This document shows, one piece after another, positions 29,518 through 60,881 of a stretch of DNA of 64,000 bases. Position 1 is the first letter of the stretch, and each line of letters opens with the position of its first letter. The DNA is from Candidatus Zymogenus saltonus (GTDB taxonomy: Bacteria > Desulfobacterota > Zymogenia > Zymogenales > Zymogenaceae). The translations under genes and the position numbers were made by a program. The DNA lies in contig JAFGIX010000003.1 of the NCBI GenBank assembly GCA_016929395.1, positions 1 to 64,000 of the forward strand, read 5' to 3'. The notes under the pieces are model-generated. The model was not told where the DNA came from. It was given only the letters and a program-made list of their open reading frames with translations, and did no database searches.

Positions 29518-29712
29518 GTCAAATCTCCCAAGTCTCGGTATCTTCAGATTTTAAAATTGCGATATTTATTGTTTTTCGTTCGTCCAATAGCATTAAACGC
29601 TGTCCAAATATCGTTCAATGCCGCCCGTCCATCATATTATCTTGTTAGAAAATTTGCAAGCTTCGATTCTAAGAGCTTTAAAGAACTCGTTCCTTCGATT
29701 TACCTAAATAGA
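29518..29712. other. Inferred left inversion breakpoint (proA | leuC)
   Basis: The 195-bp gap between the proA start and the leuC stop joins two gene sets that are normally apart. It is A+T-rich compared with both genes. It contains AAATATCGTTC (29606-29616), which is nearly an inverted copy of GAAGCGATATTT at the right breakpoint (60848-60859); this may be chance. Confidence 0.5.
29631..29659 (-). promoter_or_regulatory. Promoter for proA-nadD-rsfS
   Basis: Read on the minus strand: -35 TTGCAA (29659-29654), 17-bp spacer, -10 TATGAT (29636-29631). It drives proA from within the inferred breakpoint. Confidence 0.5.
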
Positions 29713-31008
29713 CTACAGCCCCAGATCCGCCGGGCCGGCTACCCTACCCAGCACCGCCGATGCAGCGGCGACGGCCGGGCTCGCCAGGTAGACCTCGCTC
29801 TTCGGGTCGCCCATTCTGCCGGCGAAGTTCCTGTTCGTCGTGGCGACCGCCCTCTCCCCCGCGGCCAGAACCCCCATGTGCCCCCCGAGGCACGGGCCGC
29901 AGGTCGGCGGCGAGATTACGCCGTCCGCGTCAAGAAAGACCTCGAAGAGCCCCTCGTTCATCGCCTGCCGGTAGATCGCGGGCGTTGCGGGGATTACGAT
30001 GAGCCTGACGTTCCTGTTCGCCCTTCTTCCCCTCAAGATTTCGGCGGCGAGCCTCAGGTCCTCGATCCTCCCGTTCGTACAGGAGCCGATGACGACCTGA
30101 TCTATCTCGATGTTTCCGACGTCTTCCACGGGCCTAACGTTGGAGGGGAGGTGGGGCATCGCCACCAGCGGCGGGATATTCCCCGCGTCGTACTCCCTTA
30201 CGTAGACGTATTCGGCGTCCGGGTCGCTTTTATAAACCTCGTTCTTCATCGAGGTCTTCTGTCTGGTTCCCTTTATGTAGGCGATTGTCTTCTCGTCCGC
30301 CTCGAAGATGCCGTTTTTTCCCCCCGCTTCGATGGCCATGTTCGCCATGGTGAGCCTCCCCTCGATCGTAAGGGCGGACACTGCGGGGCCTGTAAACTCC
30401 ATCGCCCTGTAAAGCGCCCCGTCTACGCCTATGTCCCCTATCGCGTGGAGGATGAAGTCCTTTGCGGTCACCCACTTCTTGGGCGTGCCGTGAAAGACGA
30501 ACTTCATCGACTCGGGGACCTTGAGCCACACCTCCCCAGTTATCATTGCGGCGGCGAGGTCGGTGCTACCCACGCCGGTGGCGAAGGCGGCGAGACCCCC
30601 GTAGGTGCAGGTATGGCTGTCGGCGCCGATGATAAGATCGCCCGGGTGGACAAGGCCCAGCTCCGGGAGGAGGGCGTGCTCCACGCCGGAGTTCCCCCCC
30701 TCGTAGATGTGGGCGATCCCCATCTTAACGGCGAACTCCCTGACCCGCTTGCACTGGGCGGCGCTCTTGATGTCCTTGTTGGGGGTGAAGTGGTCGCAGA
30801 CGAGGACCACCCTATCCCTGTCGAAGACCTCCTTTGCCCCCGCCTCCTCGAAAACGTCTATGGCGATAGGCGCCGTGATGTCGTTTCCAAGGGCGAGGTC
30901 GACCTTGGCCATAATCAGATCTCCGGGGACGACCTTTTCTACTCCCGCATGGGACGCCAGAATCTTTTCCGTTATCGTCATTTTGCCTTTCGCTTTAGCT
31001 TGGGACAT
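29713..31008 (-). CDS. leuC: 3-isopropylmalate dehydratase large subunit
   Basis: Aconitase-family enzyme of leucine synthesis, working with LeuD to isomerise 2- to 3-isopropylmalate. The 431 residues have the iron-sulfur cysteines in IGADSHTCTYGG (near 130), VVIGSCTNGR (near 305) and PPTCGPCLGG (near 365). Length and motifs fit the shorter, archaeal-like (homoaconitase-type) LeuC common in deltaproteobacteria. Its partner leuD is not next to it but at 60.9 kb on the other strand. A terminator-like hairpin and a possible promoter lie between leuA and this gene. Confidence 0.95.
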   Translation of the reverse strand: MSQAKAKGKMTITEKILASHAGVEKVVPGDLIMAKVDLALGNDITAPIAIDVFEEAGAKEVFDRDRVVLVCDHFTPNKDIKSAAQCKRVREFAVKMGIAHIYEGGNSGVEHALLPELGLVHPGDLIIGADSHTCTYGGLAAFATGVGSTDLAAAMITGEVWLKVPESMKFVFHGTPKKWVTAKDFILHAIGDIGVDGALYRAMEFTGPAVSALTIEGRLTMANMAIEAGGKNGIFEADEKTIAYIKGTRQKTSMKNEVYKSDPDAEYVYVREYDAGNIPPLVAMPHLPSNVRPVEDVGNIEIDQVVIGSCTNGRIEDLRLAAEILRGRRANRNVRLIVIPATPAIYRQAMNEGLFEVFLDADGVISPPTCGPCLGGHMGVLAAGERAVATTNRNFAGRMGDPKSEVYLASPAVAAASAVLGRVAGPADLGL

Positions 31009-31046
31009 TTGTTTCTCTTCTCCACCTTCCGCTTGATGTTGAGGTC

Positions 31047-31075
31047 ATCATAAAGTAAAAAAACTTGTTTCTAAA
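31047..31075 (-). promoter_or_regulatory. Possible promoter for leuC
   Basis: Minus strand: -35 TTTAGA (31075-31070), 17-bp spacer, -10 TATGAT (31052-31047), 39 nt before the leuC start. Confidence 0.4.
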
Positions 31076-31302: not shown

Positions 31303-32841
31303 CTAAACGGTCTGGGACTCCCTGACCTCCTTCTTCTTTCTTCCCTCTAACTTGTTCAGGGCGTTGATGAACGCCATCGCCGAGGCCACGATGATGTCGG
31401 TGTGCGCCCCAGCCCCTCCGGAGCGGAATTCTCCGTCCTCAAGTCTCACCGTCACCTCGCCTAAGGCGTCGGTTCCCCCGGTTATCGCCTTGACCTCGTA
31501 GCTCAGAAGCTTGCACTTTGCCCCCACCATCTTCTTAATTGTTCTGTAGACGGCGTCTACGGGGCCGTCTCCGAAGTCGGCTTCCCTCTTGATGTTGCCG
31601 TCGATGGAAAGCGTCACCGTGGCGGTAGGGATCGTGTCGGTTCCGGAGCTTATCGCCAGAAACTGAAGCTGGTAGCGCTCTGGAATCCTCAGGATATCCT
31701 CGGCCACGATCGCCTCGATGTCCTCGTCGAAGATGTCCTTCTTTTTGTCCGCGAGCTTTTTGAAGCTCTTGAAGGCCTTTTCCATCTGCTCGTCGTTAAG
31801 CTGATAGCCGAGCTTTCTTATCCTCTCCTTGAAGGCGTGTCTCCCGGAGTGCTTGCCCAGGACGAGTCTCGTGTGGGAGTAGCCGATGCTCTGGGGCGTC
31901 ATTATCTCGTAGGTGAGCTTCTCCTTCAATAATCCGTCCTGGTGTATCCCCGACTCGTGGGAGAAGGCGTTCGCCCCCACGATCGCCTTGTTCGGCTGGA
32001 CGGTGATCCCCGTGATGGCGCTGACCATCCTGCTCGTGGGAAATATAAGTTCCGTTTTGATGTTGGTGTCGAGTTTGAATCGGTCCTTCCTGACCTTGAG
32101 CGACATTACGAACTCCTCCAGGGAGGTGTTCCCGGCCCTCTCGCCGATCCCGTTTATAGTGCACTCGACCTGCCTCGCCCCGCACATCACGGCGGCCACC
32201 GAGTTCGCCACCGCAAGACCGAGATCGTTGTGGCAGTGAACGGAGACGGTGGTCTTCTCTATTCCGGGGACGTTTTCCATAAGATATTTGATTATGGTTG
32301 CGTACTCGTCCGGGACGGTGTAGCCGACCGTGTCCGGGATGTTTACGGTTGTGGCACCCGCCTCTATGGCGGTCTTTATAACCTCGGCAAGGTATCCAAG
32401 ATCGCTCCTTGTTGCGTCCATGGCGGAAAACTCCACCAGCTCAGTCAAGGACTTCGCCCTCTTGACGGAGGCCTTGGCGATCTTTATAACCTCGTCCCTC
32501 GTCTTTTTGAGCTGGTAATTCAGATGTATGTCGGAGGTGGAGACGAAGGTGTGGATCATGGGCGTTCTGGCGTCCTTTATGGCGTCGAACGCTACGTCGA
32601 TATCCTTTATCTTGGCCCGCGCCAGGGCTACCACAGTCGATTTTTTTACGGTCTTGGCGATCTCCCTCACGGCCTCGAAGTCGCCGGGGCTTGCCACGGG
32701 AAATCCCGCCTCGATGATGTCCACGCCGAGCCTCTCGAGCTGCATGGCGACAGTGACCTTCTCCCTGACGTTCATGCTCGCCCCTGGGGATTGCTCGCCG
32801 TCCCTCAGCGTTGTGTCAAATATTAAAACTATATCACTCAT
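31303..32841 (-). CDS. leuA: 2-isopropylmalate synthase
   Basis: First committed step of leucine synthesis, condensing acetyl-CoA with 2-oxoisovalerate. The 512 residues include the signature DTTLRDGEQSPGASM (about 9-23), SVHCHNDLGLAVANS (about 200), the metal-binding HESGIHQDG, and a C-terminal LeuA dimer regulatory domain (about 390-505), so leucine feedback is likely. AAGGA lies 9-10 nt before the ATG. No T-box-like motif was found upstream. Confidence 0.96.
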   Translation of the reverse strand: MSDIVLIFDTTLRDGEQSPGASMNVREKVTVAMQLERLGVDIIEAGFPVASPGDFEAVREIAKTVKKSTVVALARAKIKDIDVAFDAIKDARTPMIHTFVSTSDIHLNYQLKKTRDEVIKIAKASVKRAKSLTELVEFSAMDATRSDLGYLAEVIKTAIEAGATTVNIPDTVGYTVPDEYATIIKYLMENVPGIEKTTVSVHCHNDLGLAVANSVAAVMCGARQVECTINGIGERAGNTSLEEFVMSLKVRKDRFKLDTNIKTELIFPTSRMVSAITGITVQPNKAIVGANAFSHESGIHQDGLLKEKLTYEIMTPQSIGYSHTRLVLGKHSGRHAFKERIRKLGYQLNDEQMEKAFKSFKKLADKKKDIFDEDIEAIVAEDILRIPERYQLQFLAISSGTDTIPTATVTLSIDGNIKREADFGDGPVDAVYRTIKKMVGAKCKLLSYEVKAITGGTDALGEVTVRLEDGEFRSGGAGAHTDIIVASAMAFINALNKLEGRKKKEVRESQTV

Positions 32842-33052
32842 AACTATATTCCTTTTACCGTCAAGAGGGGTGCTGGGTGGTGTTTTGTCTTTTTAAAAGG
32901 ACATATTATGGGGCCGAAAATCCGCAAGAAAGACACTGATTCTTGAAGTGAAAAGTGGAGGTAAAATCGTTCCCACAATTGACCCGAAAGCCCCTCAAAA
33001 CAGAAAATAATTCAATCGGAAGTTATGCCCTGCCGAATCCCTTCCCTTGCCT

Positions 33053-33862
33053 CTACCGTTCCTCTTCCGCCGGAACCTCGCTTACCTGTTCTCCCCTTTT
33101 TCTCGTCAACAATCTGAAGAGGAGATTTACTATTCCCGACATGACAAAGAAGGCGACAATGGCAAAGAGCATTATTTCAGGCTTTATGGCGATAAGAATC
33201 AATATAAGGATTAAGAGGAGAAGGATGTTGATCGGCCTCCTCCTCGCAACCTCCAGCTCTTTAAAGCTCGAATATTTTACGTTGGACACCATGAGAAACG
33301 CCAACAGATAGACGAGGACTAGTATGTACACTCTATATTCTTCAAGGGAAAGTCCCGTATCCCTGAAAAAGAGGACCGTAGTCGCCAGCATAAGCGCGGA
33401 GGGCGGCGACGGAAGGCCGTTGAAGACGCTCTTTTCGATAGTGGTTATCTGGATGTTGAACCTTGCGAGCCTCAGGGCCGCGCAGATAACATACAGGGCC
33501 GCCCCGAGCCATCCCAGACGGGCAAAGGGCGTGAGCGCCCACTGATAGACGAGGATCGCCGGCGCAACCCCGAAGGAGACGAGATCCGAGAGGGAGTCGT
33601 ACTGGACGCCGAACTCGCTCTCCGTCTTGGTGAAGCGGGCGACCTTGCCGTCAAGACCGTCGAAGACGGCCGCAAAGATCAAGGCCCACACGGCCTGCAC
33701 AAACTTCCCGTTGATGGACAATATGATAGAGAAGAAGCCCGCAAAGAGGGACATGGTGGTTATGAGATTGGGGAGGATGTAAATCCCCTTCTTGAGGTCG
33801 TCCCTCTTAATTCTTCTCATTCCTTCTTTCTTTTTCCTTACTTTTACCCTTTTCTCCTTCAT
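33053..33862 (-). CDS. pssA: CDP-diacylglycerol-serine O-phosphatidyltransferase
   Basis: Integral membrane enzyme making phosphatidylserine. The CDP-alcohol phosphotransferase motif is complete: DGLDGKVAR, then GVQYDSLSD (about 70-95). Several hydrophobic helices (about 34-52, 57-70, 105-130, 140-160, 183-235) follow. It starts in an ATGA overlap with psd, so synthesis and decarboxylation of phosphatidylserine are coupled. Highly basic N-terminus. Confidence 0.93.
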   Translation of the reverse strand: MKEKRVKVRKKKEGMRRIKRDDLKKGIYILPNLITTMSLFAGFFSIILSINGKFVQAVWALIFAAVFDGLDGKVARFTKTESEFGVQYDSLSDLVSFGVAPAILVYQWALTPFARLGWLGAALYVICAALRLARFNIQITTIEKSVFNGLPSPPSALMLATTVLFFRDTGLSLEEYRVYILVLVYLLAFLMVSNVKYSSFKELEVARRRPINILLLLILILILIAIKPEIMLFAIVAFFVMSGIVNLLFRLLTRKRGEQVSEVPAEEER

Positions 33863-34524
33863 GGCAATACCCCCATTATGGTCTCACCGCCCTTGACCTT
33901 TTCTCCCGGCGTCACCTTTATTTCTGAATCGACGGGGAGATATAGATCAAGGCGGGAGCCGAACCTTATGAGTCCAAAACGAATCCCCTTTTGGAGGGTG
34001 TCCCCCTCTTTTGCGTAGCAGACGATCCTCCTGGCGACGATCCCCGCTATTTGAACCACGAGGATCTTCTCACTCTTTTCGTTTTCAATGACCAGTCCGT
34101 TTCTCTCGTTCTCGGAGGACGCCTTGTCGAGGCTGGCAACGAAAAACTTGCCCGGAAAGTACCTCGCCTTGACGACCTTTCCAGCCATCGGCACTCGGTT
34201 GACGTGAACGTTGAAGACCGACATGAAGACGCTTATCTTGATCGCCTCGGTGTTTAAGAAACTCTTCTCCTGAACCTTAGCTATCTCTATTACCTTTCCG
34301 TCGGCGGGCGATACGACCGCCCTCGGGTCTTGAGGTATCGTCCGGTTCGGGTTTCTGAAAAAGGCGGTAACAAACAGGGTCAGTATGATTAATGGGATTG
34401 TCACATATGGCATCGCCTTCGGGGCATAGAAATAGAGCAAAACCGCAACCACGATGGTCAAAACAAGCGCCGCAAAAATAAAGGGAAAGCCCTCCACGAC
34501 GAACAGTGTATTCTGATTTTTCAT
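33859..34524 (-). CDS. psd: Phosphatidylserine decarboxylase proenzyme
   Basis: Makes phosphatidylethanolamine. The 221-residue short (type II) form has an N-terminal pair of hydrophobic segments (about 9-30 and 38-55), VVSPADGKVIEI near 70, FMSVFNVHVNRVP near 100-112, and the self-cleavage site GS in IRFGSRLD near 187-194, where serine becomes the pyruvoyl group. Placed one base after ilvC and overlapping pssA. Confidence 0.94.
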   Translation of the reverse strand: MKNQNTLFVVEGFPFIFAALVLTIVVAVLLYFYAPKAMPYVTIPLIILTLFVTAFFRNPNRTIPQDPRAVVSPADGKVIEIAKVQEKSFLNTEAIKISVFMSVFNVHVNRVPMAGKVVKARYFPGKFFVASLDKASSENERNGLVIENEKSEKILVVQIAGIVARRIVCYAKEGDTLQKGIRFGLIRFGSRLDLYLPVDSEIKVTPGEKVKGGETIMGVLP

Positions 34525-34525
34525 C

Positions 34526-35557
<1,032 letters not shown>

Positions 35558-35811
35558 CTAAAAAATGAAAAAATCCTTTATAATATTATAAACTTTTATA
35601 AGTGGCAGTGGCCTCAACCTTGAAAATGCGTTGAAAATATTTTTCAGCCTGTTCCCCCAACAACGTTTTAAGACTCTTTCAAGGGCCTCCGGTATCCATC
35701 AAAATCTATAAATGCCCGACCCCCCGCCCCTAAAAAAGCCTGATCCCCTGACCCAATAAATGCCGACCCCCCTGTGATTATATCAAACAAAGAAACGAGC
35801 AGTCAAACAAG

Positions 35812-37503
35812 CTAAACCAGAAGCATCTTGTCTATAGGGGAGCCGACGGGTACCATCGGGTAGACGTTTTCCTCCTTGTCCACACGGAAGTCGATAATCA
35901 CCGGCCTCTTGATGGAGATCGCCTCCTCGACGGCGCCTTCAACCTCTTTCGGATCTTCCACCTTTATCCCCACAGCACCGTAGGCCTCGGCGAGTTTCAC
36001 GAAATCCGGGGCAAAGTCCATCGTTGTGTGGGAGTAGCGCTCCTCGAAGAAGAGCTCCTGCCACTGCCTCACCATCCCGAGAAAGCCGTTGTTGATAATC
36101 GCCACCTTGACGGGCAGGTTGTGCTGAACGGCGGTGGCTATCTCCTGGATGTTCATCTGGATGCTCCCGTCGCCGGCGATGTCGAAAACGAGCTTTTCCG
36201 GGAAGGCCACCTGGGCGCCGATGGCGGCGGGAAATCCATAGCCCATAGTCCCCAACCCTCCGGAGGTAAGGAGCGTTCTCGGCCTGTCGAAGTTAAAGAA
36301 CTGGGCGGTCCACATCTGATTCTGCCCCACCTCGGTTGCTATTATCGCGTCTCCCTTGGTTACCCTGTAGATCGATTCCACGACGAACTGCGGCTTGATA
36401 ATTCCGCTTTCCATCTTCTGCTCATAGTTCAGGGGGTGGGTGCTTTTCCACTTTTCGATCTGGGACAGCCACTCCTTCCTGTCCGCCTTCATTATCCTCT
36501 TCCCCTTGGCGGCGATCTTTATGAGACTTTTAAGGGCAACCTTAACATCGCTTATTATCGGAATATCGACGATGATGTTTTTGCTGATCGATGTTGGATC
36601 GATGTCGATATGGACTATCTTGGCCTTCGGGGCGAACTCGTCGACCTTCCCCGTTACCCGGTCGTCGAATCGGGAGCCGACCGCGATCAGGAGGTCGGAG
36701 TTCGTCACCGCCATGTTAGCCCTGTAAGTCCCGTGCATCCCGAGCATCCCCAGAAACAGGGGGTGGGTGCCCGGAAAACCCCCGAGGCCCATAAGGGAGG
36801 ACGTGACGGGGATGGTCAGCATCTCGGCCAGCTCCTTAAGTTCCTTTGCCGCCGATGAGCTTATCACTCCGCCCCCGATATAGAAGAGGGGCTTCTTCGC
36901 CGAGAGTATCGCATTATAAGCCTCCTCGACCCTCTTTACGTCCGCGGTGTCCTTTACCGTGTAGCCCTTAAGATTGAGCTTACCCTTTCCGTTGTAATCG
37001 GACTCGTCGGTCATCACGTCCCTGGGAAGATCGACCAATACAGGCCCCGGCCTTCCGGTCTTAGCGATGTGAAAGGCCTCCCTTATCACGCCCTCGAGGT
37101 CGGTCGCCTGCTTTACGAGATAATTGTGTTTGGTGCAGGGCCTTGTGATCCCCACGATGTCCGCCTCCTGAAAGGCGTCGTTTCCTATCAGCATCGAGGG
37201 CACCTGTCCCGTAAAGACGACTATGGGGATGGAGTCCATGTGAGCCGTGGCTATTCCGGTCACGGTGTTGGTGGCTCCCGGGCCGGATGTGACGAGCACC
37301 ACCCCGACCCTTCCCGACGCCCTGGCGTAGCCGTCCGCGGCGTGGACGGCCGCCTGCTCGTGCCTGACGAGGATGTGGCGGATGTCGTAATCGGGCATCC
37401 CGTGGTATAGGTTCAGCACCGCGCCTCCGGGGTATCCGAAAATCGTGTCCACGCCCTCGTCCAGGAGGGTCTTGAAAAATATCTCTGTTCCGGTTAACGT
37501 CAT
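35812..37503 (-). CDS. ilvB: Acetolactate synthase large (catalytic) subunit
   Basis: ThDP enzyme making acetolactate or acetohydroxybutyrate. The 563 residues include the catalytic glutamate in [20 protein letters not shown] (about 45-64), the FAD-binding middle domain, and the ThDP/Mg motif [11 protein letters not shown] near 443. Length is normal. Between its stop and ilvC there are only about 270 non-coding bp, so the regulatory subunit IlvN is not encoded beside it. Confidence 0.96.
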
Positions 37504-37883: not shown

Positions 37884-38627
37884 TTAACGCTTCCGGTTGA
37901 TGCGTTTCCCAAGTTTTCCCGTTTCGAGATTAATCTCTGCGTCAGACTTCCTGACGTAAAGGGGCTTTATCTCCTCGAGATCGGGCGCCCCGGCCTCCTT
38001 ATACTTCATCAGGGCAAGGCGGCACAAGATCGAGGCGTCCACCTCCCAAAGCCCCCTCTCCGCTATCTTCACGCCGCCTTTCAGCATCTCCTCCACAATC
38101 GGGACGCCGCCCCCGAGTATTAAACAATCTCCCCCGTGAAGCTCGATAAGGTCGAGCAGCCTGTCCGGCTTGAGGGATCGCGGGTTTAGGGAGCGCGGAT
38201 TTAAAGATCGATATTCCCCCAGTCTTTTGACGCTGCCCGAGGCGTCGACGCTGAATGGCGCGGTGAAGACCTCCCCCTTTCTTGCGTCTATTACGGGGAG
38301 AACCACGCCGTCGTATTTCGTCTTTGCGGCCAGGACGTCGAGGGTGGAGACTCCCACAATGGGAACCGAGAGGGAGTAGGAGAGCGCCTTCATGGTGACG
38401 ACGCCGACCCTCAGCGCCGTAAATGACCCCGGGCCCAGCCCTACGGCCAAGAGCCCTATCTCGTTTAAGGAAACACCCGCCTCGTTCAGGGCCGAGTTTA
38501 CCGCGAAGAGGAGGGTTTCCGAGTGGCTCCTCTTCCCGTCCGTGGACGCCTTTCCCGAAAGGGCGTCATCCCTTAATACCGCTACGCTCGCCTTTGGGGT
38601 TGCGGTGTCTACACCGAGGACTATCAT
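37884..38627 (-). CDS. tsaB: tRNA threonylcarbamoyladenosine protein TsaB
   Basis: Scaffold partner of TsaD in making t6A37 of ANN-decoding tRNAs. The 247 residues show the ASKHA-fold start VLGVDTATPKASVAVL, then KRSHSETLL and GLGPGSFTALRVGV near 68-81. An odd insert near 143-157 repeats five residues three times (RSLNP, RSLNP, RSLKP). No obvious ribosome binding site; the upstream gap is filled by a 12-bp tandem repeat. Confidence 0.92.
   Translation of the reverse strand: MIVLGVDTATPKASVAVLRDDALSGKASTDGKRSHSETLLFAVNSALNEAGVSLNEIGLLAVGLGPGSFTALRVGVVTMKALSYSLSVPIVGVSTLDVLAAKTKYDGVVLPVIDARKGEVFTAPFSVDASGSVKRLGEYRSLNPRSLNPRSLKPDRLLDLIELHGGDCLILGGGVPIVEEMLKGGVKIAERGLWEVDASILCRLALMKYKEAGAPDLEEIKPLYVRKSDAEINLETGKLGKRINRKR
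38166..38210 (-). repeat. Three-unit 15-bp repeat inside tsaB
   Basis: Units 38166-38180, 38181-38195 and 38196-38210 encode RSLKP, RSLNP and RSLNP. The DNA copies have diverged at synonymous sites while the peptide is kept. Confidence 0.7.
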
Positions 38628-38630
38628 ATT

Positions 38631-38678
38631 GATCTAACCCGTGATCTAACCAGTGATTTACCCCGTGATTTAACCCGG
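38631..38678. repeat. Four-unit 12-bp tandem repeat between rseP and tsaB
   Basis: GATCTAACCCGT, GATCTAACCAGT, GATTTACCCCGT and GATTTAACCCGG in series. On the minus strand each unit supplies one stop codon (TAA, TAA, TAG, TAG) in the rseP frame; the first is the actual rseP stop. Confidence 0.8.
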
Positions 38679-40924: not shown

Positions 40925-40933
40925 TTTTGTGTT

Positions 40934-41734: not shown

Positions 41735-42032
41735 ATTTGCTCTCCTTAATAAAACCGTCGGGGCTGTCGGCAGCAAAATTCAAATAGTCATTCTGGAGTT
41801 GCAATGCACCTTGCCGCCGAATAAATATAAAAAACCTTGCGCTCTCAAAGCCATTATCGAGTAAAAACGAGCGTCGGGCCTATTGATCAATCTTTCCGTC
41901 TGCTATACTTAAATTCCAAATTGCGCATGGGTGACAGGCTTAATTTAATTAATTTAAAATTGCACCAAAATTAGATGAAAGTCCTAAAATTGCAGTCCCT
42001 TGACCATCTGTATTAGGGTTAAAACGCCGTCC
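41735..42032. other. Intergenic gap between uppS and cdsA
   Basis: 298 bp without a gene. Composition is mixed, with an A+T tract (41940-41960) rich in TTAATT; no terminator or confident promoter was seen. Confidence 0.4.
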
Positions 42033-44058: not shown

Positions 44059-44095
44059 TATTTACTCCCGAAAAAAAGTCTCCATCTCCGTCAGA

Positions 44096-44695: not shown

Positions 44696-44778
44696 TATCA
44701 ACTCCTTAAAGCCCCGGACAACAGACCGGGGGTGTCGTTCAATCTATCCTGTTTTAATCACTGATCACCGCTGTCTTC

Positions 44779-46917: not shown

Positions 46918-46920
46918 CTT

Positions 46921-48141: not shown

Positions 48142-48358
48142 CTTCTGTAACTCAATAACAGATCAGAATCGGTTTCAAATAACGTTTACGATGAAAGCCC
48201 TGCTTCAAGTGTACATAATGTGGGTATTTTAAAAAGCCGTCCCCGTCCTCTACCTCCCACTGCTAAAAAAAGTTGAGACGTACAAATCAAGCAGAACCTG
48301 AGGCCTTTCAACCGTTTTTATGTCTTTGAGTCTTGAGGCGGGTGGATCGAGATTCTCT

Positions 48359-51283: not shown

Positions 51284-51316
51284 GGTGTTCTCCTCCGTAC
51301 TTGAGACGATTTGGAA

Positions 51317-51355
51317 TTAAGAATAAACCCCGAAGGAGGGTTTCCCGTCGGGGTT
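51317..51355 (-). terminator. Hairpin in the secA leader
   Basis: Minus strand: AACCCCGA pairs with TCGGGGTT (8 bp, 14-nt loop), then TATTCTTA. It follows the M23 gene by about 150 nt and precedes the secA start by 43 nt, so it could be the end of the M23 transcript or an attenuator of secA. Confidence 0.55.
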
Positions 51356-51506
51356 GCTTTAGCGATATTTAAAACCTCTCGGCTTTAATGAACTCTCCTT
51401 CCCTGATAAATATCTTACGCTCCCAATTATCTCTTCCGCTCCCAAGTATCTCCCAATTACCTTGATGAAGTTATTTTGTAATCCGATAACTGAGATGACA
51501 AGTGTT

Positions 51507-52469
51507 TTAATTCAAAATGTAGTTCTTCGGATTCACTGGTACGCTGTTTACACGGACCTCATAGTGCAGGTGGGGCCCGGTCGTGAGTCCCGTCTGTCCG
51601 ATGGTTCCGATCTTTGCACCCCTCTTGATTTTGTCCCCCTCCTTGACGAGGATTGAATCGAGGTGTCCGTAGCGTGTCGCGATTCCGTATCCGTGGTCGA
51701 TGGTGAGGAGCTTGCCGTATCCCCCCTCGATTCCGGCGAATACGACGATACCGTCTGCCGGGGCAATCACCGCCGTTCCAACCTTATTGGCAATATCGAG
51801 GCCCTCGTGCATCCTGAGGGTCTTGGTGTATGGGGAGCGCCTATAGCCGAAGCCGGACGTTATAAATCCCCGGGCCGGCCAGATGGAGGGGGTGCTGGCC
51901 AGGATGTTCTTTTGATCCTCGAGGAAGCTCAAAAGCTCCTGGATGCTCTCCTCTCGAAGCTTCGATTCCTCCTGGAGCTTGTCGAGGTCGACGCTTATCT
52001 CCTTCATCAATGATTTTGTATACTTATCGACATCCGTCACGCTTTCCCCCTCTTCGGGCAGCGGGCCGCCGACGCCGAACATCTCCTCTCCCTTAGTATA
52101 TTCGCCGATGTTGGTGATTATCCTGAGTTTCTCGTCGAATTGACGGATCTTTTCCATCTGGGCTTCTAAGGTATCTATCTTGTCCTGAAACTCCCGGATC
52201 TTCTCCTTCTGTCTCATGTTTGTCTCTCTCAGGTCGCCCACGGTGGTGGCCTTGGAGACCAACTCGAAGTAGTTAAAGAGCATAAATCCGGAAATGATGA
52301 TGAAAAAGAGAGTCAAAACCCCCAGGATCGTCAAGGAAAGATCGGAGATCTTGAACTTGTGTACCTTTTGGGCTTTTTGAGGGACTATTATTATAGTGAA
52401 GTATTTCTTGGACTTGAAAATATTTACTAATGTCGAAAGGAAATTACTTACAGCTATTTTTCTATTCAT
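51507..52469 (-). CDS. Membrane-anchored M23 metallopeptidase
   Basis: A 320-residue envelope protein, likely a peptidoglycan endopeptidase or an EnvC/NlpD-like activator. One membrane helix (about 46-67) follows a basic cytosolic segment; a coiled coil spans about 75-125 and 150-190; the M23/LytM domain (about 200-318) has FITSGFGYRRSP, MHEGLDIAN (first metal His and Asp) and HLHYEVRVN (last His). All zinc ligands are therefore present, so it should be active. Directly upstream of secA as in related genomes. Confidence 0.9.
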   Translation of the reverse strand: MNRKIAVSNFLSTLVNIFKSKKYFTIIIVPQKAQKVHKFKISDLSLTILGVLTLFFIIISGFMLFNYFELVSKATTVGDLRETNMRQKEKIREFQDKIDTLEAQMEKIRQFDEKLRIITNIGEYTKGEEMFGVGGPLPEEGESVTDVDKYTKSLMKEISVDLDKLQEESKLREESIQELLSFLEDQKNILASTPSIWPARGFITSGFGYRRSPYTKTLRMHEGLDIANKVGTAVIAPADGIVVFAGIEGGYGKLLTIDHGYGIATRYGHLDSILVKEGDKIKRGAKIGTIGQTGLTTGPHLHYEVRVNSVPVNPKNYILN

Positions 52470-53025: not shown

Positions 53026-54918
53026 TTACGACTTGTTCTTCAGGCTGTTCTTCCAGCGGTTCATGAAGGAGTCGAAAGTGATGTAGTATGTCTCGGTGAA
53101 GGCCTCGTCGAATTCCTTCCCCTCGCCGATCGCTTCCAGGAGGTCCCTTATAAAGCCGATTCCGTACGTCTTTATCATGTAGTTGGTGCCGGAGAGGCTG
53201 TACATATATGCGAAATAGGCCTGAGTCGTCCCAAGGCCCATAAATCCCCCTGAGAACTGTCTCAGCGACGGGAGGTCTTTGTATCGTCTGTAATATTCGA
53301 GAACGAGCTCGTCGGCCTCCACTGTCGACTTTCCCTCCATATATTGGGCCAATCCCTCATGGAGCCAGACCGGGCATCCCGAGCCGGCGATGTCGAAGAT
53401 CACGGCATGGGTGTATTCGTGGGTGACCATTGCGGTTAGCTCTTCGGTTTTTCCGGTCAGCCCCTTTATCGGAATCCGTATCTTTCCGTCAAACAGGGCG
53501 CCCGCCCAGTCAGGGGTTTTTGTCGCCTCCTTGAACTCCTTGTCTGCGTATAGGACTACGGTGAGTTTTTTCGTGGGGTATCTGCCGAGGGTCACCCCGA
53601 CCTTCTCGTATACCTCCTCGAGGGTGGTCAAGAGAAAGTTCCCTACAACTTCCCGGGAGCCCCCCTCGTACTTGATGACGAAGTGGCTCCCCTCCTTTTT
53701 GTCGAAGGCGCCCTCGATGGAATACTCGCGCTCGATCTTGGCAAGATATTGCTTGGCGAGCTCGTCGTTGGGGTGTTTTTCGGAATACCTTTTGATGAAT
53801 ACCAGCGCCTCTTCGAGTTTTTCCTGCTGATATAAAACATACCCGAGGTACATCAAAATATCGTCGTCCTCGGGATTCAGCTTCATTGCGGTTCTGTAGT
53901 ATTTCTCCGCCGATCTTAAATCGCCCTCGACTTCGGAGATCCGTCCCAACCCCTTATACGTCGAGAATTCCTGATTTGAATAATGAAGGGAATTGCTGAA
54001 GTGGACTTTCGCCCCCTCGATGTTGTTTTTTTTCAACTCCTGCCATCCCATGGCCGAATAGCATATTGAGACGCTCCTCTTCAGCGCCGTGTCGTTTGGA
54101 TTTTCACCGAGCGCCTTGAGAAATATCTTCAGGGCCTCTTCAAACCGCCCCTTTTGAAAAAGTTCCACTCCCTCGGCATATGACGAACGGGAGGATTTTG
54201 CCGTCAAATCGGGGATCTCTATTTCCGGTTCCTTCTTAAGCGTACCCGTGTCAATGGTCGGATTTTCCCCCTCGTTTTTTTCTTCCGGAGTTGTCTCCGG
54301 CAACGGGGAGACGGGAGCCTCCGAGGGAGTTTCTGCGGGAGAGGTGGGGGAAACCCCAGGGCCGATCGGCTGATTGGTCTCGTAGAATTTCTTGTAGTAC
54401 TGGTACATGAACGCCAGGGAGAGCCCAATCAAAAGAAAAACCAGTAATAAAATGAAATACCTGAGGCTCGGATTTATAGATTTTGTCTCCGCTTCGAGCT
54501 TCTCGACCGACTCCGGGATCTCGAGCTTCATTTCGTTGAGATAAGACCTTTTTAAGGGACGTCTCAGCTCCTCGATTAGCCTCTGTTTATCCTCTGGACT
54601 CTCGATTACGGGGACGAACTTCACCCGGGCCCCAAGCTTGGTGAAGTTGCGCTCAAGCTCGGCGGCCCTTCCCTTTGGCATTCTGTTCGAGATGACAAGG
54701 GGGAGATTATCGAGCCTCAATAAGATACTTTTTAGATTGCTCTCTTTTGAGCGAGAGGCAAGGTACTTCGCCGTCTCCTTTTTTGCGTTATAGTCGGTAA
54801 AGGATTCGAGGATTACCTTGTAGCTTCGCTCTTCGAGGTTTATCGGAAAGAAATTCTTGCACTTACTGCATTGGAGTGAGCCATCCGGAAGATTTGTTCC
54901 GCATAGATTACAAAACAT
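53026..54918 (-). CDS. Zinc-ribbon / TM / TPR / gluzincin-peptidase protein
   Basis: A 630-residue protein in four parts. A zinc ribbon at 3-20 (C3, C6, C17, C20). A compact domain at about 31-104 resembling the L7/L12 C-terminal fold (SYKVILESFTDYNAKKETAK...LGARVKFVPV). A membrane helix at about 152-173 with a Pro/Glu/Thr-rich linker to 235. Then TPR-like repeats (about 246-400) and a peptidase MA-like metalloprotease domain with HEYTH at 500-504 and a third ligand E521 in WLHEGLAQY. The N-terminus should be cytosolic and the protease periplasmic. It starts three bases after ftsB. Role unknown; envelope or division quality control is an inference. Confidence 0.78.
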   Translation of the reverse strand: MFCNLCGTNLPDGSLQCSKCKNFFPINLEERSYKVILESFTDYNAKKETAKYLASRSKESNLKSILLRLDNLPLVISNRMPKGRAAELERNFTKLGARVKFVPVIESPEDKQRLIEELRRPLKRSYLNEMKLEIPESVEKLEAETKSINPSLRYFILLLVFLLIGLSLAFMYQYYKKFYETNQPIGPGVSPTSPAETPSEAPVSPLPETTPEEKNEGENPTIDTGTLKKEPEIEIPDLTAKSSRSSYAEGVELFQKGRFEEALKIFLKALGENPNDTALKRSVSICYSAMGWQELKKNNIEGAKVHFSNSLHYSNQEFSTYKGLGRISEVEGDLRSAEKYYRTAMKLNPEDDDILMYLGYVLYQQEKLEEALVFIKRYSEKHPNDELAKQYLAKIEREYSIEGAFDKKEGSHFVIKYEGGSREVVGNFLLTTLEEVYEKVGVTLGRYPTKKLTVVLYADKEFKEATKTPDWAGALFDGKIRIPIKGLTGKTEELTAMVTHEYTHAVIFDIAGSGCPVWLHEGLAQYMEGKSTVEADELVLEYYRRYKDLPSLRQFSGGFMGLGTTQAYFAYMYSLSGTNYMIKTYGIGFIRDLLEAIGEGKEFDEAFTETYYITFDSFMNRWKNSLKNKS

Positions 54919-54921
54919 GAC

Positions 54922-55212
54922 TTACTCTGGGGTGAAAATGTAAATAACTTCCCCATCCTTTGCCATCCCCATCTTTGACCTGACGACGCGCTCACGATAT
55001 TCCTTGCTCTTAAGGCGGATGAGCTCGTCCTTTAGGGCGCTGTTTTGGTTCTGCAGGCTCTCGATTTCGAGGGAGATGCTCTTTTTCCTCTCTTTCATCG
55101 TCATAAAACTGATGAATCCACGCTTTCCGAAGACGGTAAAGCCCAAAATCGTCAAGGAGACGACTACGGATGCAATCGTGAGGGTTTGCCTGAGATTTTT
55201 CACTATCTTCAC
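54922..55212 (-). CDS. ftsB: Septum formation initiator FtsB/DivIC-like
   Basis: A 96-residue single-pass division protein. One membrane helix (about 10-28), then a coiled coil (ERKKSISLEIESLQNQNSALKDELIRLK) and the family ending YRERVVRSKMGMAKDGEVIYIF. It would bridge FtsL and FtsQ in the divisome. GTG start; a promoter and a 19-bp inverted repeat lie immediately upstream. The next gene, three bases on, is the TPR/peptidase gene. Confidence 0.88.
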   Translation of the reverse strand: MKIVKNLRQTLTIASVVVSLTILGFTVFGKRGFISFMTMKERKKSISLEIESLQNQNSALKDELIRLKSKEYRERVVRSKMGMAKDGEVIYIFTPE

Positions 55213-55216
55213 TTAT

Positions 55217-55235
55217 CGGGTAATCATTTTACCCG
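55217..55235. promoter_or_regulatory. Inverted repeat at the ftsB transcription start
   Basis: CGGGTAA-TCATT-TTACCCG, a perfect 7-bp repeat with a 5-nt centre. It begins two bases after the -10 and ends four bases before the GTG start, so it could be a repressor site or a leader hairpin. Confidence 0.55.
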
Positions 55236-55236
55236 A

Positions 55237-55264
55237 ATTATAACAAAAAGGAGAAGGAAGTCAA
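55237..55264 (-). promoter_or_regulatory. Sigma70-type promoter of ftsB and the peptidase gene
   Basis: Minus strand: -35 TTGACT (55264-55259), 16-bp spacer, -10 TATAAT (55242-55237). The rest of the 55213-55532 gap shows nothing else recognisable. Confidence 0.7.
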
Positions 55265-55532
55265 GGTTAAAGAGTATAAAGATTGAAAGTAAAAATATTA
55301 CTAATATTTCCTGCAGGCTCGTTCTTAAAGTGCTACTTTATGCTTTGAGACGATCTTCTGTGGACTATTCGGGGAAGGTCGCTACGTAATCAATTTATTA
55401 ATAAAAGTTCGGCCTTCCGACCGAAAAGATCGTCGGCGCTTCAATCCGTATTTAACAGGAATGCAGTCTTTTAAAAACGCAGTCCAATGAGTCGTTGTGT
55501 CAATGCTCCCTTTGACAATAATCGATCTCCCC

Positions 55533-55976
55533 TCAGCTGTCGAACTTGATTATCGGGATCTTTACAAAGGGAACCCCCTCTTCCATAAGCTCCCTCTCCT
55601 CTTCTTCGGTAGTGGTGCCGCGGATATTTTTCTTCTCCTCGAAACCGAGATGGATTTTCAGCGCCTCCTCCGCAAAGCCGGTCCCCACATCCTCGAAGTG
55701 CTTGCTTATGTATTCCTGGAGCTCGTAGAGGTTTGCCTGGATGGGTATCGGAACCTTTCCCTTATTGTCCCCTGCTTTATTTACCGAGGCGTTTGAGTTT
55801 GCCGGGATCGACCTGTTGCCGATGGAAAAGGTCGACGGTATCCGCTCGACATCGTTGCAGCCGCAATACGGGCAGCTTATAAGGAGTTTTTCCCTCTGCT
55901 CCTTAAACGAATCGCTGTCGGAAAACCATCCTTCAAAGATGTGGCCGTTGTCGCACTTTATATCGATTGCTATCAT
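55533..55976 (-). CDS. DUF1178 family protein
   Basis: A 147-residue protein with the DUF1178 start IDIKCDNGHIFEGWFSDSDSFKEQ and a CPYCGC zinc-knuckle near 35-40, plus the tail EEGVPFVKIPI. The four cysteines (C8, C35, C38, C40) suggest metal binding. No function is known to me. Probably cotranscribed with the response regulator gene 58 bp upstream. Confidence 0.87.
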   Translation of the reverse strand: MIAIDIKCDNGHIFEGWFSDSDSFKEQREKLLISCPYCGCNDVERIPSTFSIGNRSIPANSNASVNKAGDNKGKVPIPIQANLYELQEYISKHFEDVGTGFAEEALKIHLGFEEKKNIRGTTTEEEERELMEEGVPFVKIPIIKFDS

Positions 55977-56034
55977 TTTATTATTTGCTTCAAGAAAAAA
56001 ACGCCCTTTTCGAGTCTTTGGTTTTTATCCGTGA

Positions 56035-57000
56035 TTACACTTTATTTATTGCCTCATTCTCGAATTTATCTTCATCGTATGAGATAGGCGTAATCACGCT
56101 CATCCCCATCCCTTTCGTCTTGGCCTCGTTTAGGGCCTTGTCGGCCCGTTCAAAAAGGGATATGGTGTTTATCGCGTTCTTAGGCATATCCGGCACGACG
56201 GAGGCCACCCCTGCGCTCGCTGAGAGATGAAAGTTCTTTCCATTCTCTTTGAATACATTTTCCCCGATCTTTCTTCTAAGGTCTTCGGCCACCTTGAAGG
56301 CCCCGTCCTCGTCGGTGTCTATAAGGACCACCACAAATTCTTCCCCGCCGTACCTTGCCAGTAGGTCGTATTTGCGCAGGTTCACCGTTAAAATTGTCGC
56401 GATCTCTTTCAGCACCCTGTCTCCCACGAGATGCCCGAAATTGTCGTTTACCCGCTTGAAGTTATCGATGTCAATAATGATCAGCGAAAGAGGCTTTTTG
56501 AGTCGGGGGATTTTGTTTATCTCGCGGTTCAGGTAATCCCAGAAGTAGCCGGCGTTTTTGAGATCGGTCAGCTCGTCGGTGGTCGAGAGCTCATTAAGCT
56601 TGGCCTTGAGAAAATCTATCTGTGTCTTGTACGACTTGACCCTGAGCGCCGATTTCACCCTGGCAAGAAGCTCGATCTCGTCAAATGGCTTTTTTATATA
56701 ATCAACCGCTCCCGCATCGAGACCCTTCTTCACATCCTTCGAGGATGTCCTGGAAGTCAGCATTATTATCGGTATATCCCTGGTCTCCGAGCCCTGGCTT
56801 AAGATCTTACATAGAGATATCCCGTCCATCCTCGGCATAATCACATCTAATATGATGAGATCGGGATTTTGCTCGTAGGCAAGCCTGATCCCCTCGAGCC
56901 CGTCCTTCGCCTCGACGACTTCGTAGCCTTTTGTGGAGAGCGTATCCTTAACCATCTCCCGCGTGAGTTCGGAATCTTCTACTATCAATACTTTTTTCAA
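56035..57000 (-). CDS. Response regulator with diguanylate cyclase (GGDEF) domain
   Basis: A 321-residue signalling protein. The receiver domain spans about 1-120, with the phospho-acceptor D52 in LIILDVIMP and the conserved K in YIKKPF. The GGDEF domain spans about 140-305, with the active-site loop GGEEF at 218-222 and an inhibitory I-site RKYD at 209-212, five residues before it. It should make c-di-GMP when phosphorylated, with product feedback. No cognate kinase is nearby. TTG start with a strong promoter upstream. Confidence 0.93.
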   Translation of the reverse strand: MKKVLIVEDSELTREMVKDTLSTKGYEVVEAKDGLEGIRLAYEQNPDLIILDVIMPRMDGISLCKILSQGSETRDIPIIMLTSRTSSKDVKKGLDAGAVDYIKKPFDEIELLARVKSALRVKSYKTQIDFLKAKLNELSTTDELTDLKNAGYFWDYLNREINKIPRLKKPLSLIIIDIDNFKRVNDNFGHLVGDRVLKEIATILTVNLRKYDLLARYGGEEFVVVLIDTDEDGAFKVAEDLRRKIGENVFKENGKNFHLSASAGVASVVPDMPKNAINTISLFERADKALNEAKTKGMGMSVITPISYDEDKFENEAINKV

Positions 57001-57301: not shown

Positions 57302-57396
57302 TAATAGTTTCTATTGAATCTATTTAGTTTTTTAAGTTCTTAATCAACCTATGCCTTAGGTTGTCTTTATGTTTTAGGGAGGGGAGCAGAAAAAGT

Positions 57397-57708
57397 ATGT
57401 ATGCAGTAATCAAGACCGGCGGTAAACAGTACAGGGTGTCTTCCGGAGATACCATCTCCGTGGAAAAGCTGTCGGGAAACGTCGGGGATAAGATCGATAT
57501 TGAAGACGTCCTTATGGTTGGGGGGGATAAAGAGCCGAAGGTCGGCTCTCCAAATGTAAAGGGCGCAAAGGTTTCAGGGACCATCGTCTCCCAGGGGAAG
57601 GGGAAGAAGATAACCGTCCTTAAGTACAAGAGAAGAAAGGGATACAGGAGAAAGCAGGGACACAGGCAGGACCAGACGAGAATCAAGATCGACGAGATAG
57701 TCGTGTAA
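57397..57708 (+). CDS. rplU: Ribosomal protein L21
   Basis: Large-subunit protein of 103 residues: MYAVIKTGGKQYRVSSGD at the start, and YKRRKGYRRKQGHRQ near the C-terminus. The start at 57397 follows GGGAGGGGAG; a longer frame upstream has no support. First gene of the rplU-rpmA-obgE-proB run. Confidence 0.97.
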   Translation: MYAVIKTGGKQYRVSSGDTISVEKLSGNVGDKIDIEDVLMVGGDKEPKVGSPNVKGAKVSGTIVSQGKGKKITVLKYKRRKGYRRKQGHRQDQTRIKIDEIVV

Positions 57709-57925
57709 ATCTCCATTTCCCTTTGGGGTTTGGGTAAATTGCGAATCTGGCTGTTTTGGTTAGCAGGGGGGGATGGGGGGGAATCGGATTTATTGCAGCG
57801 TGGGGGGGCACTTTTAAGTGGATGTCTTAACGGAAGTGGTAAGTAGGGTTGGAGATAGATAATTTGTGAAGTAATTATCTTGGATTAATTTTATATAAAT
57901 GAGGGAGAACTTTTAGGAGTCAGCC

Positions 57926-58183
57926 ATGGCACACAAAAAGGGACAGGGAAGTTCCAGAAACGGAAGGGACAGCGCGGGCAGGAGATTGGGCCTCAAGTGC
58001 GGGGCCGGACAGACGATCAGCGCGGGGAGCATCATCGTCCGCCAGCGGGGGTCGAAAATTCACCCGGGAGTCAATGTGGGGATGGGAAAGGATCACACCC
58101 TTTTTGCCCTGATAGACGGGAAAGTAGAGTTCGGTAATATCTCCGGCGGCAAGAAGAAAGTCAGCGTCATCACCGAAGACTGA
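57926..58183 (+). CDS. rpmA: Ribosomal protein L27
   Basis: Large-subunit protein of 85 residues beginning [20 protein letters not shown], with the conserved GSIIVRQRG and FHPG-like FAL. AGGAG lies before the ATG. The 217-bp gap from rplU is longer than usual and G-rich, with no clear signal. Confidence 0.97.
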
Positions 58184-58493
58184 TAACGGTTTTTGTCTTG
58201 TCGGTCGGCCGTCGCGGGCGGAGGGGATGGGGATAATGGAGGGGTGGAGTCAGAAAGAATGAGGATGCAAGTGGGTGATCTGTGCAAAGGGATGAGGGTT
58301 GCAAGGGGGACGGCGATCGATTCTAAAATATTCTCAAACGAATGATAATGTTTCGGAGGACTCCTCAACCCTTACGAATCCTTATATATTATATGGATCC
58401 AAGCGGGATTTGATATTCATCCATTGAAATAATTAGAATTACGGGTATTTGAGGCTCGAACGATTCTGAAAATATAGCAATAGACGGAAAATC
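58184..58493. other. Gap between rpmA and obgE
   Basis: About 310 bp without a gene, closed by a strong hairpin at 58494-58543. A+T-rich patches near 58380-58400 could hold a promoter, but no -35/-10 pair with good spacing was found. Confidence 0.4.
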
Positions 58494-58543
58494 AAAGGGC
58501 GGACGTAGGCTTGAGGAGACTTGAGATCGTTCGCCCTTTTTTT
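58494..58543 (+). terminator. Strong terminator directly before obgE
   Basis: AAAGGGCGGACG (58494-58505) pairs with CGTTCGCCCTTT (58528-58539) over 12 bp with one G-U pair, followed by seven T ending at 58543. Only 16 nt separate it from the obgE start. Confidence 0.8.
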
Positions 58544-58559
58544 ATGGGGGATATTCGGG

Positions 58560-59579
58560 GTGAAGTTCGTTGACGAGGCGACAATAGAGATAAAGTCAGG
58601 GGCCGGTGGCGACGGCTGCATGAGCTTTCGCAGGGAAAAGTACGTCCCAAAAGGCGGACCGAACGGCGGCGACGGCGGGAACGGCGGAGACGTCTATATA
58701 GTCGGAAATCCCCAGATGTCCACCCTCCTCGACTACAAGTACAGGCAGCACTGGGCCGCAAAGCGCGGCGCCCACGGGAAGGGCAAGGATCAGCACGGGA
58801 AAAACGGAAAAGACCTAATAATACCCGTTCCGATGGGAACCGAGGTTCTGGACGCTCAAAAAGGAGAGCTGATCGTCGATGTGGTCGAGCCGGACGTCAA
58901 GGTTCTTCTGCTCAAGGGCGGAAGGGGGGGCAGGGGAAACGCACGCTTCGCCTCCCCGACAAACAGGGCGCCCAGGGAATTTGAGAAGGGAGGTCCCGAA
59001 AGGTCGGCAGTTATCCGCCTCTCCCTCAAGGTTATCGCCGACGTCGGCATTATTGGGTTTCCGAACGCCGGCAAGTCTACCCTGATAAGCAAGATCTCCA
59101 GGGCGAGGCCGAAGATCGCCGACTATCCCTTTACCACCCTTACCCCGACCCTCGGGATCGTATCCCTCGACGGCGGGAGGAGTTTCGTGATGGCCGACAT
59201 CCCCGGGATCATCGAGGGGGCGCATAAGGGGGTGGGGTTGGGGACGAGATTCCTGAAGCACGTGGAGAGGACCAAGGTCCTGATTCACCTCCTTGACCTG
59301 AATCCGCAGAGCGGGAGGGACCCGGCCCGGGATTACGAGATTCTGAACTCCGAGCTTAAATCCTTCAGCACGGCCCTCTATCAAAAGCCCCAGGTGGTGG
59401 CGGCGAACAAGACAGACCTCCCCGGCTCCAAAGAGAAATTTGACGAGCTTGTGGATCGACTCTCCACATTAGATATTGACATTTTCCCCATTTCTGCTAT
59501 CAATGGGGATGGAACCAAGAGGCTCCTGAATGCCGTGTATGGCGTGATGGAGGGGCTTGGTAAAAAAGAGGCGGAGTAG
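58560..59579 (+). CDS. obgE: Obg/CgtA GTPase
   Basis: Essential ribosome-assembly and stress GTPase. The 339 residues have the glycine-rich Obg fold (KFVDEATIEIKSGAGGDGCMSFRREKYVPKGGPNGGDGG), the GTPase domain with GFPNAGKST (near 167), DIPG, and NKTD. The GTG at 58560 is chosen because GGGGGA lies 8 nt before it and the upstream part of the frame is the terminator hairpin. Confidence 0.96.
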   Translation: MKFVDEATIEIKSGAGGDGCMSFRREKYVPKGGPNGGDGGNGGDVYIVGNPQMSTLLDYKYRQHWAAKRGAHGKGKDQHGKNGKDLIIPVPMGTEVLDAQKGELIVDVVEPDVKVLLLKGGRGGRGNARFASPTNRAPREFEKGGPERSAVIRLSLKVIADVGIIGFPNAGKSTLISKISRARPKIADYPFTTLTPTLGIVSLDGGRSFVMADIPGIIEGAHKGVGLGTRFLKHVERTKVLIHLLDLNPQSGRDPARDYEILNSELKSFSTALYQKPQVVAANKTDLPGSKEKFDELVDRLSTLDIDIFPISAINGDGTKRLLNAVYGVMEGLGKKEAE

Positions 59580-59638
59580 ACATCGGGGAGGGCGGTATTC
59601 CCCTTTTAGAGGCGTGATTGACGTGATTAATTGATATT

Positions 59639-60763
59639 ATGCGAAAAGAGCTGATAGGAAACGTAAAGCGGGCCGTTGTAAAGATAGGGAGCGGCGTCCT
59701 CACGGCAAAGGAAGGCCTTAATATCGTCGCCATTGAGAGGATCACATCAGAGATCGCCGCTGTAAAGGAGCGGGGAATCGAGTGTGTAATAGTGTCTTCC
59801 GGCGCGATAGCGGCGGGAGTGCCCAAGCTCGGCTTTCTCGCGAAGCCGACTGCGATGGCCGAGCTGCAGGCGGCCGCCTCCGTCGGGCAGACATCCCTCA
59901 TGAGGGCATATGAGCGCTCGTTCGAGAACCACGGGATCGTAGTCGGCCAGATACTCCTGACAAACAGGGACCTGAGCTACAGACACAGGTTCATCAACGC
60001 GAGAAACACGATCTTCACCCTTCTCGATTTGGGGATAATCCCGATAATCAACGAAAACGACACGGTGGTAGTCGACGAGATTCGCCTCGGCGATAACGAT
60101 TTTCTCGCCGCCCAGACGATAAACCTCGTCGAGGCCGACCTCCTCCTGCTGTTGACCGATACCGCGGGTTTCTACGACAAGGACCCGAATCTCCATAAAG
60201 ATGCCAAATTGATATCGATTGTGAAAAACGTCAAGGAGGAGGCAAGCCATCTCGCGGCGGACACCTCGACCAAGGTCGGGGTCGGAGGGATGAAGACAAA
60301 GGTCGAGGCGGCACAGATGGCCGTCGAGATGGGAATACCGGCGATAATCGGAAGTGGAGTCCAGAAGGACTCCATAATCGATATTTTTGACGCCAAAGAT
60401 GTGGGGACCCTTTTTCTCCCGAAGAAAGTCGGGATGAAGAGCAAAAAATACTGGATCAGGTACTCGCCTAAGGTTACCGGAACGATCGAGGTGGACGAGG
60501 GCGCCTTCAAGGCGATAGTCAACGGGGGGAAGAGCCTGCTGCCCGGCGGAATCGTTATGGTCACGGGAAATTTCAAGGAGAAGGAGATAGTCTCTCTATT
60601 GGGGCCCGAGGGGGAGGAGTTCGCCAGGGGACAGGTGAATTACAACTATCACGAACTCATGGAGATAAAGGGAAAGAAGACCGGCGAGATACGGAGAGGG
60701 AAGGGGGATAAACACCCGGACGAGGTGGTACATCGGGACAACCTCGTCCTCATCCACAGGTAG
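59639..60763 (+). CDS. proB: Glutamate 5-kinase with PUA domain
   Basis: First step of proline synthesis. The 374 residues contain the kinase domain (VVKIGSGVLT near 15, VSSGAIAAG near 54, NENDTV near 140, TDTAGFYDKDP near 178) and a C-terminal PUA domain (about 275-365). Feedback by proline is usual for the family. Its normal partner proA is on the other side of the window. Confidence 0.97.
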   Translation: MRKELIGNVKRAVVKIGSGVLTAKEGLNIVAIERITSEIAAVKERGIECVIVSSGAIAAGVPKLGFLAKPTAMAELQAAASVGQTSLMRAYERSFENHGIVVGQILLTNRDLSYRHRFINARNTIFTLLDLGIIPIINENDTVVVDEIRLGDNDFLAAQTINLVEADLLLLLTDTAGFYDKDPNLHKDAKLISIVKNVKEEASHLAADTSTKVGVGGMKTKVEAAQMAVEMGIPAIIGSGVQKDSIIDIFDAKDVGTLFLPKKVGMKSKKYWIRYSPKVTGTIEVDEGAFKAIVNGGKSLLPGGIVMVTGNFKEKEIVSLLGPEGEEFARGQVNYNYHELMEIKGKKTGEIRRGKGDKHPDEVVHRDNLVLIHR

Positions 60764-60881
60764 GGATCCCGGGTAAAAAAGATTGGGCGGGGTCGGGCGG
60801 GTTTTGCTGACGGGGGAGGGCGGATGCAGGTGGCGTCGGAATGGATTGAAGCGATATTTTAAAAAAAAGGGGGGGGTCAGC
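60764..60881. other. Inferred right inversion breakpoint (proB | leuD)
   Basis: The 118-bp G-rich gap joins proB to leuD, genes of different pathways. It has no terminator and no clear promoter, so leuD-leuB-asd may depend on readthrough from the obgE-proB transcript. GAAGCGATATTT (60848-60859) is nearly an inverted copy of AAATATCGTTC in the left breakpoint. Confidence 0.5.

Follow-up and report, generated by a model that had tools for sequence, protein, structure and literature searches.

In Aggregatibacter actinomycetemcomitans, rearrangement breakpoints that fall between the genes of an operon part those genes without cutting them, and the available text of that study counts 558 of 564 and 505 of 515 predicted operons as intact, so that 1–2% are affected (PMC2996985). 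Inversions are treated as common structural variants in the available portions of two further studies (PMC9584773; PMC12863080), and the accessible part of a Caulobacter study places gatA and gatB of gatCAB apart, parted by two other genes and served by different promoters (PMC4221894). The term ‘chimeric operon’, where it occurs in the available text of PMC535925, denotes mixed gene origin. An exchange between leu and pro operons was not reported in the available portions of the literature searched.

Here we describe such an exchange in Candidatus Zymogenus saltonus (G000; a 3.76-Mb draft in 92 contigs). The window, by which we mean the whole 64-kb stretch of DNA analysed, comprises bases 1–64000 of contig C3 (144,545 bases), and we compared it with three family genomes, all drafts: a second species of the same genus (G001), a family-mate (G003) and a further family genome (G002). 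Gene identities rest on NCBIfam models for most genes, on Pfam for rsfS, and on reading of the translations by eye for rplU and rpmA; cdsA is called probable as its score lies below its model’s cut-off, and LeuD passes the cut-off of the subfamily TIGR02087 but not that of the equivalog TIGR02084. The features are:

27164–27454, minus strand: rsfS (Pfam PF02410, 5.2e-26), in the exchanged tail of the obgE-pro operon.
27577–28254, minus strand: nadD (NF000840 / TIGR00482), in the same exchanged tail.
28261–29517, minus strand: proA (NF001221, 3e-187), first gene of the exchanged obgE-pro tail.
29518–29712: junction 1, the leuC/proA spacer, 195 bp.
29713–31008, minus strand: leuC (TIGR02083 LEU2, 4.5e-204).
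31303–37503, minus strand: leuA, pssA, psd, ilvC and ilvB (NCBIfam), collinear with G003 C18 at 166.7–172.6 kb.
37884–52469, minus strand: tsaB, rseP, dxr, probable cdsA, uppS, frr, pyrH, tsf, rpsB, a UbiA-family gene, argJ, secA and an M23 peptidase gene, collinear with G003 C18 at 151.8–166.3 kb.
53026–55212, minus strand: a TPR/peptidase-MA protein gene and a DivIC-like gene, flipped with respect to the neighbouring M23 gene relative to G003.
55213–55532: junction 3, between the DUF1178 gene and the DivIC-TPR pair, also present in G001 C90.
55533–57000, minus strand: a DUF1178 gene and a response-regulator/GGDEF gene, in identical order in G002 C81 and G003 C26.
57361–60763, plus strand: rplU, rpmA, obgE and proB, the promoter-proximal half of the obgE-pro operon.
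60764–60881: junction 2, the proB/leuD spacer, 118 bp, with the same junction in G001 C422.
60882–63548, plus strand: leuD (start ATG at 60882), leuB and asd, the exchanged tail of the ilv-leu operon.

Read in order of transcription, the minus strand carries ilvB-ilvC-psd-pssA-leuA-leuC, a 195-bp spacer and then proA-nadD-rsfS, and the plus strand carries rplU-rpmA-obgE-proB, a 118-bp spacer and then leuD-leuB-asd; both operon breakpoints are intergenic, the cuts lying between genes and the genes themselves being uncut. The initial annotation had placed leuC beside proA (minus) and proB beside leuD (plus) across gaps of just these lengths, and the family models and inspection by eye bear it out in genes, order, strands and spacing. 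A minus-strand ORF at 57324 was set aside as the antisense of rplU, not a separate gene. An Rfam scan of the window gave a single match at the gathering threshold, a 6S RNA gene at 12640–12822, and no match at the junctions. SecA (974 aa, 48359–51283) has as its best stretch 600 residues over 492 positions of model NF009538, which suggests an insertion of about 100 residues.

The two cross-joins are rare. In a survey of 58 other genomes of the phylum, in which one gene follows another when it lies within 2 kb on the same strand, proA follows proB in 42 of the 53 genomes having both genes placed (5 of the 58 lack one or both pro genes; a proA-like match of 28% identity in G057 was dropped), and leuD follows leuC in 35 of 44 (one best match per genome; in 14 of the 58, leuC or leuD has no close match once weaker paralogues of the aconitase family are dropped). 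Eleven of the 53 do not have proA after proB; two of these (G033, G035) have the genes adjacent in reversed order and seven, G001 included, have them on different contigs. By comparison, proA follows leuC in 1/44 genomes and leuD follows proB in 1/44, the only case each time being the same-genus G001, and chance does not explain two reciprocal joins, as the initial annotation too had found hard to believe. Among named records, leuD lies within 2 kb 3′ of leuC at 75 of the best 80 of 591 leuC loci, and at the other five is further off (1), absent on the stretch (3) or beyond the reach of a contig that ends (1); on none of these 80 stretches, a few of which are the same records as genomes in the 58-genome survey, was proA or proB found. 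LeuC identity to the G000 protein is 82% in G001, 72% in G003 and 69% at best in the named records (best 80 of 591). The best leuC and leuD matches also lie apart in some distant relatives, 18 kb apart in G031 (C7) and on different contigs in G013 and G050; splitting of LeuC and LeuD may have occurred more than once.

The family-mate G003 carries both operons in their intact state, obgE-proB-proA-nadD on C26 and M23-secA...leuC-leuD-leuB-asd on C18. In G002, proB-proA is intact, and the leu contig ends within ilvB and is hence silent on leuC-leuD. Set against G003 C18, leuD-leuB-asd and the right flank are collinear, the right flank from 176.8 kb onwards and up to about 99 kb of the contig, while the segment from the M23 gene to leuC is reversed; the genes at 37884–52469 are the remainder of the ancestral leu-side block. 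Flipping the segment between the two reciprocal operon junctions heals both, and the proposal to that effect in the initial annotation, made for 29.6–60.8 kb, agrees with the intact G003 orders.

In G001, pssA-leuA-leuC-proA-nadD is found on C326 (a 5.7-kb contig) and obgE-proB-leuD-leuB-asd on C422 (9.5 kb), each with its junction internal to the contig. The two genomes share 73.8% nucleotide identity over 29.3 kb aligned (a figure that includes two small rows outside the junction genes). The leuC-proA spacer measures 195 bp in G000 vs. 89 bp in G001, and the proB-leuD spacer 118 bp vs. about 465 bp, with diverged sequence in both (the G002 and G003 spacers, as compared, include or omit a few coding bases). 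A palindromic, MITE-like repeat of ~100 bp in the G001 proB-leuD spacer (L143:2250–2350) explains part of the extra length; counting itself it matches 8 places in G001, and a further 3 in G000 (e.g. C3:86925–87034), none of them at the G000 junctions. Because both cross-joins sit inside G001 contigs, the exchange is no misassembly and is not recent to one species; the exchange of operon tails is real and predates the split of the two species. Gene order at both loci in the closest genomes thus speaks against the recent event that had been suggested, with the same cross-joins in G001 and the intact order in G003 (and, for proB-proA only, in G002).

A single inversion, as originally proposed, accounts for part of this arrangement: the 31-kb flip heals both operons, but it does not restore the ancestral map, and another rearrangement is needed, because the G003 operons sit on separate contigs. 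Both ends of C26 are at least 69 kb away from the pro locus, and both ends of C18 at least 76 kb away from the leu block, so a distance of at least about 146 kb parts the operons in that genome. In G023 and G033, each a single contig, the separation exceeds 1.5 Mb; for G030 the contig coordinates put it at about 1.1 Mb, or at 0.7 Mb by the shorter arc should the contig be circular. In G040 about 45 kb separates leuC from proB, which there stands alone and away from proA. The present 31-kb spacing of the operons is best read as derived.

The other rearrangement left two junctions of its own. The DUF1178 and response-regulator/GGDEF genes adjoin rplU in G002 and G003 too, and the DUF1178 neighbours in those genomes, alike in both and within a ~27-kb collinear stretch, are other than DivIC-TPR. 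If junction 3 arose by inversion, a partner join of outer pro and outer leu genes is expected, and it was found on G000 C52, which is collinear with G003 C26 at 41.6–69.4 kb and then, reversed, with G003 C18 from 146.1 to 130.0 kb. G001 carries the same outer join on C247 and the order obgE...GGDEF-DUF1178-TPR-M23 on C90; all four new junctions are therefore present in both genus genomes compared. The DUF1178/DivIC-TPR and C52 joins show that a further rearrangement moved the operons close to each other.

More than these two steps must have happened, because the DivIC-TPR pair is inverted with respect to its M23 neighbour relative to G003 (a separate small rearrangement beside junction 3), one gene that G003 carries beside DivIC-TPR is unmatched in the window, and collinearity with G003 is lost beyond rsfS. 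The genes to the left of the M23 gene differ between G002 and G003, so the outer leu flank of G003 is not proven ancestral; we take it as such because the four ends fit reciprocally and exactly. The ORF beyond rsfS has many paralogues. The left flank of the window (1–27100) is not collinear with the G002 and G003 stretches compared, and a phosphomannomutase-like gene within it (24287–25690) has a 57% match in G001, against only 31–32% in G002 and in G003, so the sequence next to the pro tail seems genus-specific.

Starting from a G003-like arrangement, and with the two loci in either relative orientation, we enumerated every history of one or two two-break steps. None of the one-step histories yields the four junctions, and four two-step paths do so. 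The only path made of inversions alone places the large inversion, with the outer breakpoints, first and the 31-kb flip second; of the other three, one passes via a transient second circle back to one chromosome and two finish as two circles. On the premise that inversions alone took place, the 31-kb flip is thus a real event and came second. We consider it likely that the locus arose in this way, by a large inversion followed by the 31-kb flip, both before the split of the two species. The breakpoints of the first inversion would have lain immediately outside DUF1178 on the pro side and, on the leu side, immediately beyond the DivIC-TPR/M23 end of the block. It would have set the rplU-obgE-proB-proA operon back to back against the rpsB...ilv-leu block, with the operon tails about 31 kb apart and directed away from each other. 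A local 31-kb inversion would then have cut within the proB/proA and leuC/leuD spacers and turned round the whole stretch between them; since the operons were directed outwards, their tails would have been exchanged in the sense direction. The ancestral orientation of the two loci is drawn here only from skew and the enumeration, and the first inversion’s size lies out of view in the draft family genomes.

In place of the two inversions, a chromosome segment could have left as a circle and then been re-inserted. This corresponds to one of the four two-step paths, that with a transient second circle returning to one chromosome; no closed family genome fixes how the two loci were oriented ancestrally. 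We nevertheless regard it as distinctly unlikely: it requires a large circle and re-insertion at exact places, where inversion is the simpler event, and the two remaining circle paths end with two circles and need a third step. The outer flanks, moreover, keep their polarity between G003 and C52 (in G003 the pro side is lagging and the leu side leading, unchanged on C52), which fits an inversion between chromosome arms; such polarity is what would be expected, judging from the draft contigs, if the first inversion spanned the two arms.

In the two-inversion history, the 31-kb flip looks to be polarity-reversing, carrying rpsB, tsf, frr, secA and others to the apparent lagging strand; 19 leu-side genes, from leuC to the M23 peptidase gene, changed strand. 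Fourfold-site GC skew in the flipped leu-side genes is −0.158 (gene bootstrap 95%: −0.206 to −0.105), vs. −0.153 in the contig’s other minus genes, −0.046 (−0.078 to −0.017) in its plus genes and +0.032 (−0.026 to 0.095) in the G003 orthologues of the flipped genes, the groups being small (17–62 genes each). Since the flipped genes resemble the other minus genes and not their G003 orthologues, the strand change has had time to equilibrate. AT skew separates the groups less cleanly than GC skew, and plain window GC skew mostly tracks gene strand and is alone no evidence. A recent inversion confined to the G000 species, akin to one of the two options in the initial annotation, would suit the clean, intergenic state of both operon breakpoints; it is highly improbable, given that the event is common to G001, that the spacers have diverged in length and sequence, and that the skew has equilibrated.

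The breakpoints carry little trace of how they were joined. Two inverted pairs of at least 25 nt occur in the window, neither at the operon breakpoints, and between the two junction regions no inverted exact match exceeds 9 nt, compared with a mean of 8.7 and a maximum of 12 in shuffles. Any former breakpoint repeats may since have decayed; our default inference is that the ends were joined without long homology. Misorientation of the 31-kb segment during assembly of G000, also raised at the outset, is the kind of error that a 92-contig draft might contain, but with neither operon breakpoint offering a repeat that could mislead an assembler, and with the same four new junctions inside the contigs of the separately assembled G001, it retains hardly any probability. 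A programmed, reversible segment that switches operon tails, to which the two intergenic breakpoints and the sense-preserving exchange would be suited, is just as implausible, as no inverted repeats join the ends, the orientation is identical in two species, and no recombinase was recognised among the annotated genes inside (a subset of the inside ORFs having been scanned).

The spacers bear on how the new tails may be expressed. The G000 leuC-proA region has one weak, 9-of-12 promoter-like match towards proA (0.2 expected in the 601 bases scanned) and the proB-leuD region has no promoter-like match before leuD; terminator-like sites are absent from both scanned regions. In G001, promoter-like matches number five in the corresponding leuC-proA region, an overlapping pair of them facing proA, and the opposite strand bears two terminator-like sites; around proB-leuD the scan gave no promoter-like match and a single terminator-like site, again on the opposite strand. 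Co-transcription of the new tails (leuC-proA and proB-leuD) is plausible, proA may have its own promoter, and LeuC/LeuD and ProB/ProA would now each be made from separate transcription units. A larger claim would be that of a fixed rewiring, in which proA, nadD and rsfS have come under branched-chain amino-acid control and leuD-leuB-asd under a ribosomal-protein/ObgE promoter, with LeuC/LeuD and ProB/ProA uncoupled since before the split, tolerated and perhaps favoured; we hold this to be rather doubtful.

The locus offers a clean natural experiment, with LeuC and LeuD, and ProB and ProA, parted by one sense-preserving flip and kept parted in two species; it lets one ask how much the co-transcription of partners matters, and it illustrates that chimeric operons can arise through two rearrangements with no repeat detectable. 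The class of event is well known, and the case is neat and ordinary in kind, with a history that is unusually readable. As in Aggregatibacter actinomycetemcomitans, the breakpoints lie between the genes of operons; unlike anything described in the available text of that study, one reciprocal event here cuts two operons and sets each tail in sense behind the head of the other (PMC2996985). Like the replication-symmetric inversions treated in the portions available of PMC9584773 and PMC12863080, the probable first inversion leaves its outer flanks with their polarity relative to replication unchanged, whereas the 31-kb flip, as the second step, is a local one that reverses polarity. And as with gatCAB in Caulobacter, an operon has been rearranged between related species, but the exchange with a second operon is reciprocal here, a feature that the accessible part of the gatCAB study does not describe (PMC4221894).
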